Assembly: GCF_900104025.1 (NCBI RefSeq)
Contig: NZ_FNIQ01000005.1
Coordinates: 372,001 to 436,000, forward strand
Length of the DNA: 64,000 nt
Source: Geodermatophilus sp. DSM 45219
GTDB taxonomy: Bacteria > Actinomycetota > Actinomycetes > Mycobacteriales > Geodermatophilaceae
Direction of reading: 5' to 3'
Below the pieces are notes generated by a model. That model saw nothing but the letters and a program-made list of their open reading frames with translations. It was not told where the DNA came from and did no database searches. Position 1 is the first letter of the stretch, and each line of letters starts with the position of its first letter. Below are positions 7,229 through 46,860 of this stretch, piece by piece. The translations under genes were made by a program, and so were the position numbers.

Positions 7229-7794
7229 TAGCGCACCAGCGGCAGGCCGGTGAAGCCGTGCCGCTCGTAGAGGGCGCGGGCCGGCGCGTGTCCGTCGTCC
7301 CCGCCGGTGCCGATGACGGCGAGCGGGACGCCCCGTGCGGCGATCTCGTCGACCGCCCGGCCGAGCAGCCGGCCGGCGATCCCGGCCCGCTGGTGCGCCG
7401 GGGCGACGGCGATCATCTCGACCTCCCCGACCGGCGTGGCGTCCTCCTCGGTCCACCGGACGGCGACGAAGCCGACCGGGACGCCGTCGACGTCGGCGAT
7501 CCAGGCATCGAGGGACCGGCACACCTCGGCCACCGCGGCGGCCTGTGCCGTCCGCCAGTCGGGGTGGACCATCCCGAACACCCGCGGCCCCATGACGGCC
7601 TCGAAGCTCGCGAACACCGGCTCCCACGCGTCGAGGGAGAAGGCGACGACCGCGTCGACGTCGGCGTCGGTCAGCGGCCGGATGGTGACACCCTGGAACG
7701 GCCCCGCTGCAGGGCTTCCGTTGGCCCCGTCCAGAGGCTCGTCCCGAGCCTGCGAGGGATGAGGAGGACGGGGTCCTTCTACTTCTATTCCCAT
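7213..7794 (-). CDS. GNAT family N-acetyltransferase
   Basis: An acetyl-CoA-dependent acyltransferase of the GNAT fold. The core begins [15 protein letters not shown], and the acetyl-CoA loop reads [14 protein letters not shown] with a C-terminal ALYERHGF motif. The only ATG/GTG/TTG in frame upstream of the core is the ATG at 7794, which overlaps the end of guaA and makes residues 2-36 a translation of the intergenic repeat at 7695. The usual start of such genes, a GTG before ACC ATC CGG, is GTC here (7686 region). Either the protein has a repeat-derived extension (193 residues in total) or a non-standard start is used. Substrate unknown. Confidence 0.75.
7695..7777. repeat. GC-rich structured intergenic element, copy 2
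   Basis: Outer arms CCCCGTCC (7725-7732) and GGACGGGG (7766-7773); inner arms GGCTCG (7736-7741) and CGAGCC (7745-7750) on a 3-nt loop. A further GGAACGGCCCC tail extends to 7695. It lies immediately after the guaA stop (7785, minus strand) and inside the extended GNAT frame. Best-conserved copy of the family. Confidence 0.75.
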
Positions 7795-13836: not shown

Positions 13837-14136
13837 ATGGCCGACATCCGCCGCCTGCCCACGCCCGTTGCCGAGGTCTGGGACTGGCAGCTGCACGGCG
13901 CCTGCCGCGGGGAGAGCACGGCTCTCTTCTTCCACCCGGACGGCGAGCGCGGCCCGGCCCGAGCCCGTCGCCAGGCAGCCGCGAAGGCGGTCTGCGGCCG
14001 CTGCCCGGTCGTCGAGTCCTGCCTGAAGCACGCACTGTCGGTCCGCGAGCCCTACGGCGTCTGGGGCGGCATGAGCGAGGAGGAGCGGGCCCGGCTGATC
14101 GCCGCGGAGCCCGCCGCCGTCGCCGCGGGGGTCTGA
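13837..14136 (+). CDS. whiB3: WhiB-family iron-sulfur transcription factor, WhiD/WhiB3 type
   Basis: A 99-residue Wbl protein. Cys23, Cys53, Cys56 and Cys62 form the C-x29-C-x2-C-x5-C set that holds a [4Fe-4S] cluster, and the GVWGG turn (residues 74-78) precedes the basic tail. The N-terminus with WDWQLHGACRG and FFHPDGERG matches Mycobacterium WhiB3 and Streptomyces WhiD rather than WhiB1 or WhiB2. Such proteins bind region 4 of the principal sigma factor and respond to redox or NO. ATG 13837 has an ideal GAGGAGG 5 nt upstream. Synteny with bldM and groEL1 supports WhiD orthology and a developmental or stress role. Confidence 0.93.
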   Translation: MADIRRLPTPVAEVWDWQLHGACRGESTALFFHPDGERGPARARRQAAAKAVCGRCPVVESCLKHALSVREPYGVWGGMSEEERARLIAAEPAAVAAGV

Positions 14137-14138
14137 AG

Positions 14139-14200
14139 GAGGACCCCGCGTCCCCCATCCCCCGGAGGCTCGGGACGGGGCCCTGACGCGGGGCCGTTCC
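14139..14200. repeat. GC-rich structured intergenic element, copy 3
   Basis: Outer arms CCCCGCGTC (14144-14152) and GACGCGGGG (14185-14193), then the CCGTTCC tail. It begins 3 nt after the whiD-like stop, in the forward orientation for this plus-strand gene (AGGACCCC next to the stop). Confidence 0.75.
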
Positions 14201-14210
14201 AGAGAGTCAC

Positions 14211-14250
14211 CGAGAGGGCCGGTCCAGCAGCTGCTGGACCGGCCCTCTCG
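14211..14250. terminator. Perfect 40-bp palindrome
   Basis: The left arm, starting CGAGAGGGCC and ending in CAGCAG (14211-14230), is exactly complementary to 14231-14250, with no mismatch and no fixed loop. It separates the converging whiD-like and groEL1 genes and is likely a bidirectional terminator. Two other structured elements flank it. Confidence 0.8.
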
Positions 14251-14291
14251 GCGTCTGCGGGACGGTTGCGGACAGCATCCGGGCTCACGAT

Positions 14292-14353
14292 CGCGGCTCC
14301 TGGCTCACGGTCGGTGGTGAGCCAGGAGCCGCGGTGATCAGCTCAGCTGATCA
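14292..14353. repeat. Two-hairpin REP-like element, copy A
   Basis: Hairpin 1 has perfect 17-bp arms (14292-14308 and 14317-14333; core GGCTCCTGGCTCAC) with an 8-nt loop. Hairpin 2 is TGATCAGCT-c-AGCTGATCA (14335-14353), followed by TCGAG. The same two-part layout recurs at 25749-25808 after glmS. Here it lies 14 bp after the groEL1 stop. Confidence 0.75.
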
Positions 14354-14367
14354 TCGAGCGGGTCAGC

Positions 14368-16492
<2,125 letters not shown>

Positions 16493-23835: not shown

Positions 23836-25293
23836 TCACGTCCTCGAGTCTCCCAGCCGGCCGTCCGGCGCCCGGTGCAGGTGCGCCATCGCGGCCGGCA
23901 GGTGCCGCACGAGGTCGCCGGCGATCAGCGGGCCCCCTTCCGCGGCCCGCTGCCCGGCCCGGCCGTGCACGTGCGCACCGACCGCGGCCGCCTCCGCGGC
24001 CGGGAGCCCGGTGGCCAGCAGGGCGCCGGTGAGGCCCGACAGGACGTCGCCGGTCCCGGCCGTGGCCAGCCACGGCGTCCCGGTGGCGTTGACGTAGGCG
24101 GTGCCGTCGGGTGCGGCGACGACCGTCGCGTCGCCCTTGAGCAGCACGACGGCCGCGAGGTCCGCGGCCAGCCGGCGAGCGGCACCCACGCGGTCGTCCC
24201 CGACCTCCGCCCCGAAGCGGGCGAACTCGCGGTCGTGCGGCGTCAGCACGGTGGGCGCCTCGCGCCGCCGCACGAGACCGGGGTCGTGCGCCGCCATCGT
24301 CAGCGCGTCCGCGTCCACCAGCACCGGCAGGTCGGTGGCCAGCACCTCGGCCAGCACGCCGCGGGCGTCATCGTCGGTGCCCATCCCCGGCCCGACCACC
24401 CAGGCCTGCACCCGTCCGGCGTCCCCCGGCCGGCCCTCGGTGACGATCACCTCCGGCCACGCGGCCCGCACGCCCGCGGCCGCCGTCCCGGCGTAGCGGA
24501 CCAGCCCGGGCCGGGCGCGCAGCGCCGCCCCGGTGCAGAGCACGGCGGCGCCGGGGTAGGTCGAGGAGCCGGCGACGATGCCGACCACGCCCTGCGTGTA
24601 CTTGTCGTCGTCGCTGCCCGGCGGGCGGATGCGGGCGGCCGCGTCGGCGTCGGTCAGCTGGTGGGTGCCGGCGGCCGGCAGGTCCAGCCCGATGTCGACC
24701 AGGTGGACCCTGCCCGCGTACCCGCGGCCCTCCCCCACCACCAGCCCGGTCTTCAGCGCGCCGAACGTGACGGTGTGCTGGGCAGGGAACGCCGTCCCGG
24801 GGACCGCGCCGGTGGTCGCGTCCACCCCGCTGGGGACGTCGACGGCGACCATCAGGCCCGGCCCGGTCGCGGCCCGCTCGACCAGCGCGGCCGCCGGCGG
24901 GCGCAGTCCGCCGCGGCCGCCGATGCCCACGATGCCGTCGAGGACGAGGTCGGCGCGCTCGAGCCCGGTGTCCCCCTCGGGCCCGGCGACCCGCCCGCCC
25001 GCGGCGCGCAGCGCGGCCAGCCCGGCGGCGTGCACCCGGTCCGGGTCGAGCGGGACGGCGGTGACGCGGGCGCCACGACGGGCCAGGTGGGCGCCGGCGA
25101 AGAGGGTGTCCCCGCCGTTGTCGCCGGCACCGACGAGCGCGGTGACCCGCGTGCCGTGCGCGCGGCCGAGCAGCCGCAGGCAGACGGTGGCCAGGCCGGT
25201 CGCGGCGCGCTGCATGAGCGTGCCCTCGGGCGTGGCGGCCAGCAGCGGCTCCTCGGCGGCACGCACCTCCGCGGCGCTGTACAGCCCGATCAC
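23836..25293 (-). CDS. nnrD: Bifunctional NAD(P)H-hydrate epimerase / ADP-dependent dehydratase
   Basis: A 485-residue fusion of NnrE (N-terminal YjeF_N epimerase, about residues 1-210, with [11 protein letters not shown]) and NnrD (C-terminal ribokinase-like dehydratase, about 225-480, with [11 protein letters not shown] and catalytic AGTGDVLSG). It repairs NADHX and NADPHX, hydrated cofactors formed by heat or by GAPDH side reaction. GTG 25293 makes a 4-nt GTGA overlap with the acpS stop. The acpS-nnr-alr order is the common actinobacterial one. Confidence 0.95.
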
Positions 25294-25679
25294 GGGGTCT
25301 CCCCTCGCAGCACGCCCTCGGCGACGACCACCGCCGAGGCGATGCCGCCGTCGTGGCTGAGCGACACGTGCCAGGAGGTGACGCCGAGCTGCGCCGCCCG
25401 GCCGGCCACCGTCCCGCGGATCGCCAGGTGCGGCCGGCCGTGGTCGCCGACGGTCACCTCGGCGTCGTGCCAGCGCAGGTCCCCGGGCGCGCCGAGGGCC
25501 TTGGCGACGGCCTCCTTGGCGGCGAAGCGGGCGGCCAGCGACTCACCGGTCCGCGCGCCGCCGCTGGGTGTGCGCTGCTCGTCGGCGGTGAACAGCCGGT
25601 CGCGCAGACCCGGGGTGCGGATCAGGGACTCGGCGAAGCGGTCGACCGGCACCACGTCGATCCCGACCCCGATGATCAC
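25290..25679 (-). CDS. acpS: Holo-[acyl-carrier-protein] synthase
   Basis: A 129-residue phosphopantetheinyl transferase that moves 4'-phosphopantetheine from CoA to acyl carrier proteins. The motifs [12 protein letters not shown] (with the metal-binding Asp8) and [13 protein letters not shown] are intact; [11 protein letters not shown] ends the core. A CAGACT hexamer (25686-25691, minus strand) ends 6 nt before GTG 25679, a possible leaderless promoter. It heads the acpS-nnr-alr group. Confidence 0.95.
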
Positions 25680-25748
25680 AGACGTAGTCTGCCGCGCCGC
25701 CGTCCGGGCCGCCGTCCGTGTCGCGGACCGTCGTCCTGGCTCACCGTT

Positions 25749-25808
25749 CCGGTTCCGGGCTCAGCACCGGTGGTGAGCCCGGAGCCGGCTGGATCAGCTC
25801 AGCTGATC
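25749..25808. repeat. Two-hairpin REP-like element, copy B
   Basis: Hairpin 1 arms 25749-25763 (CCGGTTCCGGGCTCA) and 25774-25788 pair with one wobble; hairpin 2 is GATCAGCT-c-AGCTGATC (25792-25808), followed by GTCGAG. The layout and the second hairpin match copy A at 14292. It lies 10 bp after the glmS stop. Confidence 0.75.
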
Positions 25809-25818
25809 GTCGAGGACG

Positions 25819-30087: not shown

Positions 30088-30173
30088 CCAGCCGGCGGGA
30101 CCGGCCCTCCCGGCCGCCGATCGGTCCCCGACCGCGACCCCACCGCCGGTCCGCGTCCGCGCCCCGGTCCGCT

Positions 30174-30262
30174 CCTCGCCCGCCGGCGCTCGCCGCGATG
30201 CTTCCTCGCTCGCCGGCGCTCGCCGCGATGCTTCCTCGCTCGCCGGCGCTCGCCGCGATGCT
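30174..30262. repeat. Three-unit 30-bp tandem repeat
   Basis: The unit starting CGCCGGCGCTCGCCGCGATG occurs at 30181-30210, 30211-30240 (identical) and 30241-30262 (partial), with seven bases of a preceding unit. It lies between the carbonic anhydrase stop and the rplM promoter. There are no spacers, so it is not a CRISPR array. Confidence 0.85.
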
Positions 30263-30272
30263 CCCGTGGCCG

Positions 30273-30758
30273 TCAGCGGACTTCGCGCAGCACCCCGGTG
30301 TCCACGTCGTAGACCGTCCCGCGCACGTCGGAGGACACCAGGTACGGGCAGGCCCGCAGCGTCCGGACCGACTCGCGGACGTCCTCCTCGACGTCGGCGA
30401 AGCCCTGCACCGGCCAGTCGGGGCGCACCCCCGTGGCCCGTTCGACCACGTCGAGGACGGCGGCGTCCTCGGCGCCCTCCATGCCGCAGCGGGTGTGGTG
30501 GACCAGGACCACCTCCCGGGTGCCGAGCACGTGCTGGGAGATGGCCAGCGAGCGCAGGGTGTCGGCGGTGACGACCCCGCCGGCGTTGCGGATGACGTGG
30601 GCGTCACCGGGCTCCAGCCCGAGGATCCGGTAGACGTCCATCCGCGCGTCCATGCAGGCCACGACGGCGACCGCGCGGGCCGGCCGGGCCGGCTGCCCAC
30701 CGGGCGACTGCTGCGCCCACCGTGCGTTCGCCGCCAGCATCCGGTCCACCTCGGCCAC
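30273..30758 (-). CDS. Beta-class carbonic anhydrase
   Basis: A 161-residue zinc enzyme interconverting CO2 and bicarbonate. Ligands Cys35 and Asp37 (ACMDARMD), His88 and Cys91 (HHTRCGM) are in the beta-class pattern; RNAGG follows the dimer strand. It resembles the short Mycobacterium Rv1284-type enzymes. GTG 30758 is preferred over GTG 30764 because GAGGAGG then lies 6 nt upstream. It is isolated: the tandem repeat lies downstream and the divergent moeA upstream. Bicarbonate supply for carboxylases is the likely role. Confidence 0.92.
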   Translation of the reverse strand: MAEVDRMLAANARWAQQSPGGQPARPARAVAVVACMDARMDVYRILGLEPGDAHVIRNAGGVVTADTLRSLAISQHVLGTREVVLVHHTRCGMEGAEDAAVLDVVERATGVRPDWPVQGFADVEEDVRESVRTLRACPYLVSSDVRGTVYDVDTGVLREVR

Positions 30759-46725: not shown

Positions 46726-46803
46726 GGGTGTCGTGCCTCTCTCACCGCGGTTCCTCTCGCCGTCCGGCTCGTGCCGTCGAGCGGGGCCTCTCGGTGATCG
46801 TTG

Positions 46804-46860
46804 AAGGACCTCGTACCTCTCGACCCTTGCAAGCTCGGGCCGAGCCTCTGGACGAGGCCG
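46804..46860. repeat. GC-rich structured intergenic element, copy 9, inside the spc operon
   Basis: Outer arms CCTCGT (46809-46814) and ACGAGG (46852-46857); inner GCTCG (46833-46837) and CGAGC (46841-46845). It aligns along its length with copy 2, but both outer arms have changed C-to-T/G-to-A together, keeping the pairs. It is inverted relative to the other operon copies: its AAGGACC end faces rpsH. Confidence 0.7.

Follow-up and report, generated by a model that had tools for sequence, protein, structure and literature searches.

The window that we analysed (the whole stretch of 64,000 nucleotides from Geodermatophilus sp. DSM 45219) contains two genes, groEL1 and glmS, that are each followed by a copy of the same palindromic element. 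A preliminary description of this DNA had noticed a two-hairpin repeat behind both genes, and both copies are where it placed them. The two-hairpin repeat turns out to be part of one larger unit of 88 bp, with these parts and neighbours:

14210-14251: separate terminator-like hairpin downstream of groEL1, outside the element
14270-14357: element copy A, between groEL1 (minus strand, stop at 14370-14368) and the end, near 14136, of a convergent plus-strand gene
about 14277-14289: extra copy of the 5' core arm (half-arm A1) of copy A, from the alignment and the class definition
14293-14332: core hairpin of copy A (5' arm, 8-nt loop, 3' arm; model columns 24-63)
14336-14352: palindrome box P of copy A, exactly GATCAGCTCAGCTGATC
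25726-25813: element copy B, flanked by glmS (its stop at 25821-25819, minus strand) and by the minus-strand gene that comes next, 25290-25679
about 25733-25745: extra copy of the 5' core arm of copy B, from the alignment
25749-25788: core hairpin of copy B (model columns 24-63)
25792-25808: palindrome box P of copy B, exactly GATCAGCTCAGCTGATC and identical to that of copy A

Read in the plus direction of the window, the unit runs from a left part through an 8-nt spacer, the core hairpin, and another 8-nt spacer to the palindrome GATCAGSTSASCTGATC; seen from groEL1 and glmS, the first box after the stop is the palindrome. The left part is either a degenerate second palindrome or an extra 5' core arm. 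Both window copies have the extra arm, about 20 nt upstream, and it had gone unlisted in the preliminary description, which had the two hairpins right. That description was also right that the short palindrome is identical in the two copies, and that the long hairpin differs between them but remains paired (14293-14308 with 14317-14332 in copy A, 25749-25764 with 25773-25788 in copy B). It put both copies 10-14 bp after a stop codon; this is true for glmS (10 nt after the TGA) and nearly so for groEL1 (15 nt after the TGA). The TCGAG that it took as the end of the element is not conserved, and most copies carry ATCG, GTCG, or ACCG there.

The conserved core arms are TCCTGGCTCA and TGAGCCAGGA, with a loop of 8-10 nt, and the mean folding energy of the core is -36 kcal/mol (144 copies). 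Among these 144 copies, 75 have two palindromes, 67 have one palindrome and an extra arm, and 2 are unclear. There are 4 matches to GATCAGCTCAGCTGATC on the two strands with up to 3 mismatches; 100 shuffles gave 0.10 on average and never reached 4. We considered whether the whole unit could be a single long hairpin. All 39 mirrored pairs are in register, but two of them are disrupted in nearly all of the 21 copies from this genome (columns 17/70 in 19, columns 19/68 in 20), so we prefer separate hairpins. We also set aside the idea that the third arm forms an RNA switch: the 5' arm has a nearer partner across the 8-nt loop. Rfam 15 had no match above its gathering score in the 64-kb window, and we found no description of such an element in Geodermatophilaceae in the open-licence papers that we searched.

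The preliminary description held that its idea would fail if these were the only two copies, with no wider distribution in relatives. This is not the case, because the element is widespread in relatives. In its own genome, model R1 finds 24 loci, each matched on both strands (48 matches), although this count comes from 150 scored candidates and may miss weak copies. Copy A is the best of these matches, at 99.3 bits, and copy B scores 89.4 bits. The palindrome alone, with up to 2 mismatches, has 24 forward and 23 reverse matches in this genome, as compared to none for a reversed control pattern. With the covariance model, the element is found in all 26 congeners (E ≤ 0.01) and in 95 of 112 genomes of Geodermatophilaceae (E ≤ 0.001), a family of bacteria from soil and rock. 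Of 298 genomes sampled evenly from the order, 47 matched and 45 of those belong to this family, which leaves 2 of up to 247 other genomes. These two, G230 (4 matches, the best at 8.1e-12, in a genome that is 82% complete) and G223 (2 weak matches, 3.5e-5), belong to other families, and their matches may reflect transfer, contamination, or chance. All of the 80 matches to the exact core pattern that were listed among named records, out of 115, are from Geodermatophilus, Blastococcus, or Klenkia; Geodermatophilus and Klenkia are Geodermatophilaceae according to NCBI.

The copies that we compare were found with model R1 and a weight matrix, both built from 21 copies of this genome. The search itself therefore partly rewards invariant boxes, fixed length, and the composition of the best-match lists, and the top matches to R1 are biased toward orthologs of the own copies. 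Copies per genome are lower bounds, since 39 candidates were scored per family genome and 14 per genome of the order sample; for example, G079 and G093 were positive in the scan of 112 family genomes and had 0 matches in the order sample. We reduced 154 matches to 144 distinct copies, and dropped L074 and L075, which had no weight-matrix match over 25. From genomes with other cores we used 82 of 90 loci (L428 and L247, which are 87-base matches, and L237, L241, L248, L251, L253, and L255 were excluded).

The element lies at the ends of genes. Genes were called with a codon-usage script that was trained on the window, rather than a standard gene caller, and its start calls are rough. In 134 of 144 copies, the 88 bp have a facing stop codon no more than 30 nt away (a few stops fall inside the unit), while the baseline is 22% of noncoding positions in the window. 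The flanking genes are convergent for 87 copies, tandem for 52, and divergent for 2, with one side uncalled for 3; gaps of at least 30 nt in the window are tandem in 29 cases, divergent in 7, and convergent in 6. Both stops are within 30 nt in 47 of the 87 convergent copies, so in these cases the element fills the gap. At the named loci, among the 80 of 115 matches listed, gaps with the element are convergent 38 times, tandem 29 times, and divergent 3 times, and other gaps of at least 30 nt number 25, 160, and 89, respectively. The difference between convergent and tandem gaps is significant (Fisher p = 2.5e-11), but some species contribute to both the named loci and the 144 copies, whose position statistics are therefore not independent. 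The 82 other-core copies follow the same pattern (40 convergent, 38 tandem, 1 divergent, 3 incomplete). Also, where a copy with one palindrome lies between tandem genes, P faces the upstream stop 21 times and the opposite way twice.

The gap from the stop codon to P has a median of 14 nt (117 sides) and is 5-25 nt on 87 of the 117 sides. This spacing brings to mind the REPs of E. coli, which are described as stalling ribosomes when they lie within 15 nt of a stop codon (PMC12306157), and the element might be a translational control element of this kind. We think that this is very unlikely, as such a role does not require the symmetry of the element or its enrichment between convergent genes, and many of the gaps exceed 15 nt. 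We did notice that, by the codon-usage gene calls, a stop codon falls inside P in 5 of 144 copies (L168, L171, L201, L204, and L215) and in 8 of 82 other-core copies. The palindrome carries TGA on both strands, and P may supply or back up stop codons.

Is the element a REP, as its layout had suggested? The preliminary description likened it to REP/BIME elements moved by RAYT transposases. The likeness of layout stands: these are short, dispersed, extragenic palindromes 3' of genes. The proposed movement finds no support. A search for PF01797 (Y1_Tnp) gave no match in this genome at E ≤ 10, and the same search was positive in 10 of 14 control genomes; at E ≤ 0.001 it gave no match in any of the 112 family genomes, with 5 of 14 controls positive. 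There is no conserved GTAG head either: GTAG is present in 30 of 226 copies, where it mostly lies within the variable core arm, and GTGG, which occurs in 159 of 226, is commonest in the loop and is not a conserved head. REPs are described as palindromes of 20-40 bp that usually exceed 100 copies per genome (PMC3733652, PMC2817692), and here we have an 88-bp unit with 24 copies. So the element is REP-like in a broad sense, but it fails the defining tests of RAYT-moved REPs, which are ruled out as far as PF01797 can tell and by the missing GTAG head. A classical REP/BIME could still be rescued by a RAYT that is too divergent for PF01797, which we find hardly credible.

A broader alternative is a non-autonomous mobile element (similar to a MITE or a REPIN) that is moved by some other transposase, and that either inserts next to stop codons or is removed by purifying selection elsewhere. 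The copies are dispersed, and 75 of 144 have inverted ends. Presence also varies among congeners. Of 26 congeners, 8 have the element, whole or in part, behind purA, 14 behind glmS, and 11 behind groEL1 (6+2, 10+4, and 9+2 whole plus partial copies, where the whole copies were scored by script and the parts were read by eye); it is missing even in part in 18, 12, and 15, respectively. On the other hand, many junctions are shared. For 18 of the 24 own copies, there is a counterpart among the sampled foreign copies that shares a flanking gene, and of the 120 foreign copies, 51 share at least one flank with an own copy and 38 share both. In genus g2, 13 of 29 copies share one flank or more and 12 of 29 share both. 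Because model R1 was built on own copies and favours orthologs, we repeated the comparison with the other-core genomes, and found 17 shared junction pairs for 82 copies (6 of 24 in G024, 5 of 13 in G032, 3 of 12 in G037, 2 of 12 in G004, and 1 of 1 in G016, though 0 of 15 in G025 and 0 of 5 in G006). By chance, we would expect about one or fewer per comparison, if we assume 4,500-4,700 gene ends.

Orthologous copies behind purA in 5 species differ by 4-11% in their boxes and by 30-44% in their spacers. Behind groEL1, the P box and arms are identical in four species, and the extra arm (0.157) is as variable as the spacer (0.125). Given the shared junctions and the patchy presence at purA, glmS, and groEL1, the element is old at many junctions, yet it is often gained, lost, or replaced. 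We saw no autonomous version of it (the transposase search being PF01797), nor any clean pair of empty and filled sites with a target duplication at the junctions of the three genes in 26 congeners. Repeats do move at these places: at groEL1 in G024, the P box holds an insertion of another repeat family, and the same probably applies to glmS in G011. Overall, a mobile element is a real possibility, though an unlikely one.

That other family is a second repeat that adjoins stop codons. It lies at 7723-7782, 14153-14202, 16119-16177, and 46800-46859 of the window, has the core CTCGCASGCTCGNNNCGGGNCC and ends like AAGGACCCC..GGGGCCGTTCCAGCACGTCAC, and is commoner than the 88-bp element: with up to 2 mismatches allowed, this genome has 131 matches on the forward strand and 119 on the reverse, as compared to 2 and 3 for a control. 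In congeners that lack the 88-bp element, it often occupies the same junction. Downstream of the stop, it lies inside the P palindrome, or replaces half of it, in L137 (groEL1 of G024) and L108 (glmS of G011), which is a nested insertion. A third repeat, GTGAGCACCGCAGCGAGCG.., follows the stop at the end of glmS in L095 (G009) and L115 (G001), and the end of glmS with its stop is duplicated behind it, like a target duplication. The window also contains about three tandem copies of a 30-nt repeat, TCCTCGCTCGCCGGCGCTCGCCGCGATGCT, at 30173-30287.

The stem of the core hairpin changes in a paired way. Across 226 copies, the TCC/GGA at its base is constant, and both partners of four inner pairs change yet stay paired in 94-99% of copies: columns 33-54 (G-C, C-G, A-T), 34-53 (G-C, C-G), 36-51 (T-A, C-G), and 37-50 (C-G, G-C). 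The favoured arms differ between species. As a control for relatedness, we shuffled the 3' arms within each genome, and pairing fell: 367 of 410 cells were observed, against a mean of 341 and a maximum of 360 in 2000 shuffles. Within this genome alone, covariation is weak. Its arms hardly vary, its pair counts are barely above those of shuffles, 15 of 500 shuffles reach the observed percentage of paired positions, and the covariation term from RNAalifold for 21 own copies is near nil (+0.5). So the covariation that the preliminary description proposed to look for is there, but the claim rests on the wider set.

Paired change could also arise without selection on pairing. Template switching between inverted repeats is described as homogenising the arms and inverting the spacer (PMC8604942), with a similar account for RNA hairpins (PMC8794818). 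In 130 copies, the extra arm shows which way the element runs. Among them, the loop CCGTGGGACG is found 7 times in one orientation and 8 times as its reverse complement, and four further loops likewise occur in both orientations; controls with loops that were only reversed or only complemented gave none. Most of the flips come from G024 and G025 (24 of 27 non-palindromic loops), and this genome has 0 of 5. The extra arm is closer to the arm of its own element than to those of other copies in the same genome (349 of 441, as compared to a shuffled mean of 332.5 and a maximum of 348). Loops in both orientations fit template switching, and because they do, the covariation need not stem from selection alone. 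One could go further and propose concerted evolution of a 3'-end element that is specific to this family and mostly stays in place: it would occupy the same junctions across genera, its arms (including the extra unpaired one) would be rewritten together by hairpin-templated replication, and this might keep pace with a trans-acting factor that recognises the invariant TCC/GGA and GATCAG boxes at a spacing of three turns. We consider this proposal improbable.

The invariant boxes could also mean that the element is bound as DNA by a sequence-specific protein, of the nucleoid or chromosome-organising kind, that would find them on one face of the helix. On either side, 31.5 bp separate the box centres, or three turns at 10.5 bp; there is almost no variation in length; and, like TCC/GGA, the GATCAG boxes are invariant or nearly so in 226 copies. 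However, the fixed length is partly an artefact of searching with an 88-column model without gaps, and the middle of the stem covaries and is different in different species. A role in RNA would also fit better with the tie to stop codons and the near absence between divergent genes, so we think that a DNA site is quite improbable.

The preliminary description had allowed that the element might be a terminator, and this idea survives in part. A stable hairpin shortly after a stop codon is what is expected of an intrinsic terminator, and the position and the pairing fit. There is no U-tract: the 12 nt after the stem contain 1.4 and 0.4 T's on average on the two strands (144 copies), and a terminator scan of 14100-14450 found nothing at copy A. 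Furthermore, groEL1 has the other terminator-like hairpin downstream (14210-14251), and a similar hairpin is present in most congeners, with or without the element. Behind groEL1, all 15 congeners that lack the element have another strong hairpin. We rejected a general need for a strong hairpin at such junctions, as a strong substitute (z ≤ -2) is present where the element is missing in just 3 of 12 cases at glmS and 5 of 18 at purA. The lack of a U-tract, the separate hairpin at groEL1, and the lack of a substitute in most cases at purA and glmS count against termination as the sole task. And on 18 of 57 start-facing sides, the next predicted start is just 13-40 nt away (these start calls being rough), where a strong terminator would be awkward.

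Our best explanation, which we hold with moderate confidence, is that the element is a mainly inherited, bidirectional 3'-end RNA element of Geodermatophilaceae that acts as a terminator without a U-tract, as a protector of mRNA ends, or as both. That it acts in RNA, and in what way, we infer from the sequence: we favour a role at gene ends because of the tie to stop codons, the symmetry together with the enrichment between convergent genes, the orientation of P toward the upstream stop, and the pairing that is kept. From 5' to 3', the transcript would contain the stop codon, about 14 nt, the small P hairpin, an 8-nt linker, the strong GC-rich core hairpin, another 8-nt linker, and then a second P or the extra core arm. 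As the element reads much alike on the other strand, it should be able to serve two convergent genes. In the RNA, it would form a hairpin terminator without a U-tract, a barrier to 3' exonucleases, or both. Selection would keep the arms matched, probably with help from hairpin-templated mutation (template switching), through which the loop can be inverted and both arms rewritten at once. The points raised above against termination also weigh against this explanation, as do the weak covariation within this genome alone, the chance that template switching produces covariation without selection, and an extra arm that, in the groEL1 orthologs, is no better conserved than the spacer.

If this explanation is correct, then a single standard hairpin module that works in both directions marks some gene ends in most members of a bacterial family, and it does so without the transposase that spreads REPs. 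The family would also offer natural replicates, in which the same gene junction occurs with and without the module or with different arms, for the study of how mRNAs end or are protected in GC-rich Actinomycetes without U-tracts. And it would become possible to tell selection on RNA pairing from template-switch mutation of DNA, two sources of paired change in hairpins that are often mistaken for each other.

How does the element compare to known systems? It resembles REP, BIME, and REPIN (PMC3116915) elements as described (PMC12306157, PMC3733652, PMC2817692) in being a short dispersed extragenic palindrome 3' of genes, often with inverted pairs, and some of those elements also lie near stop codons. 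Unlike them, it is a fixed unit of three boxes over 88 bp with 24 copies, the family has no RAYT that we could find and the element no conserved GTAG head, and many of its junctions are common to different genera. CGTC-tagged REPs are described as palindromic repeats without a dedicated transposase (PMC3733652), and CGTC occurs in 212 of 226 copies of our element. In the element, CGTC is mostly in the stem, at the base of the core arm or of its extra copy, rather than forming an unpaired end tag; also, PMC3733652 places the CGTC-tagged repeats in five other phyla, and its main text does not contain “Actino.” The joint rewriting of the arms and the inverted loops are like those of template-switched inverted repeats (PMC8794818, PMC8604942), but unlike the cases described there, ours is a dispersed bacterial 3'-end element. 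Finally, the intrinsic terminators of Streptomyces are described as poor in U's, with long, stable, covarying stems (PMC12207403). The element is like such terminators of GC-rich Actinomycetes in having a stable GC-rich hairpin behind a gene, covariation, and few U's, and it differs from them in being a repeated family with a fixed geometry, a second palindrome, and an extra arm, known here from its sequence.
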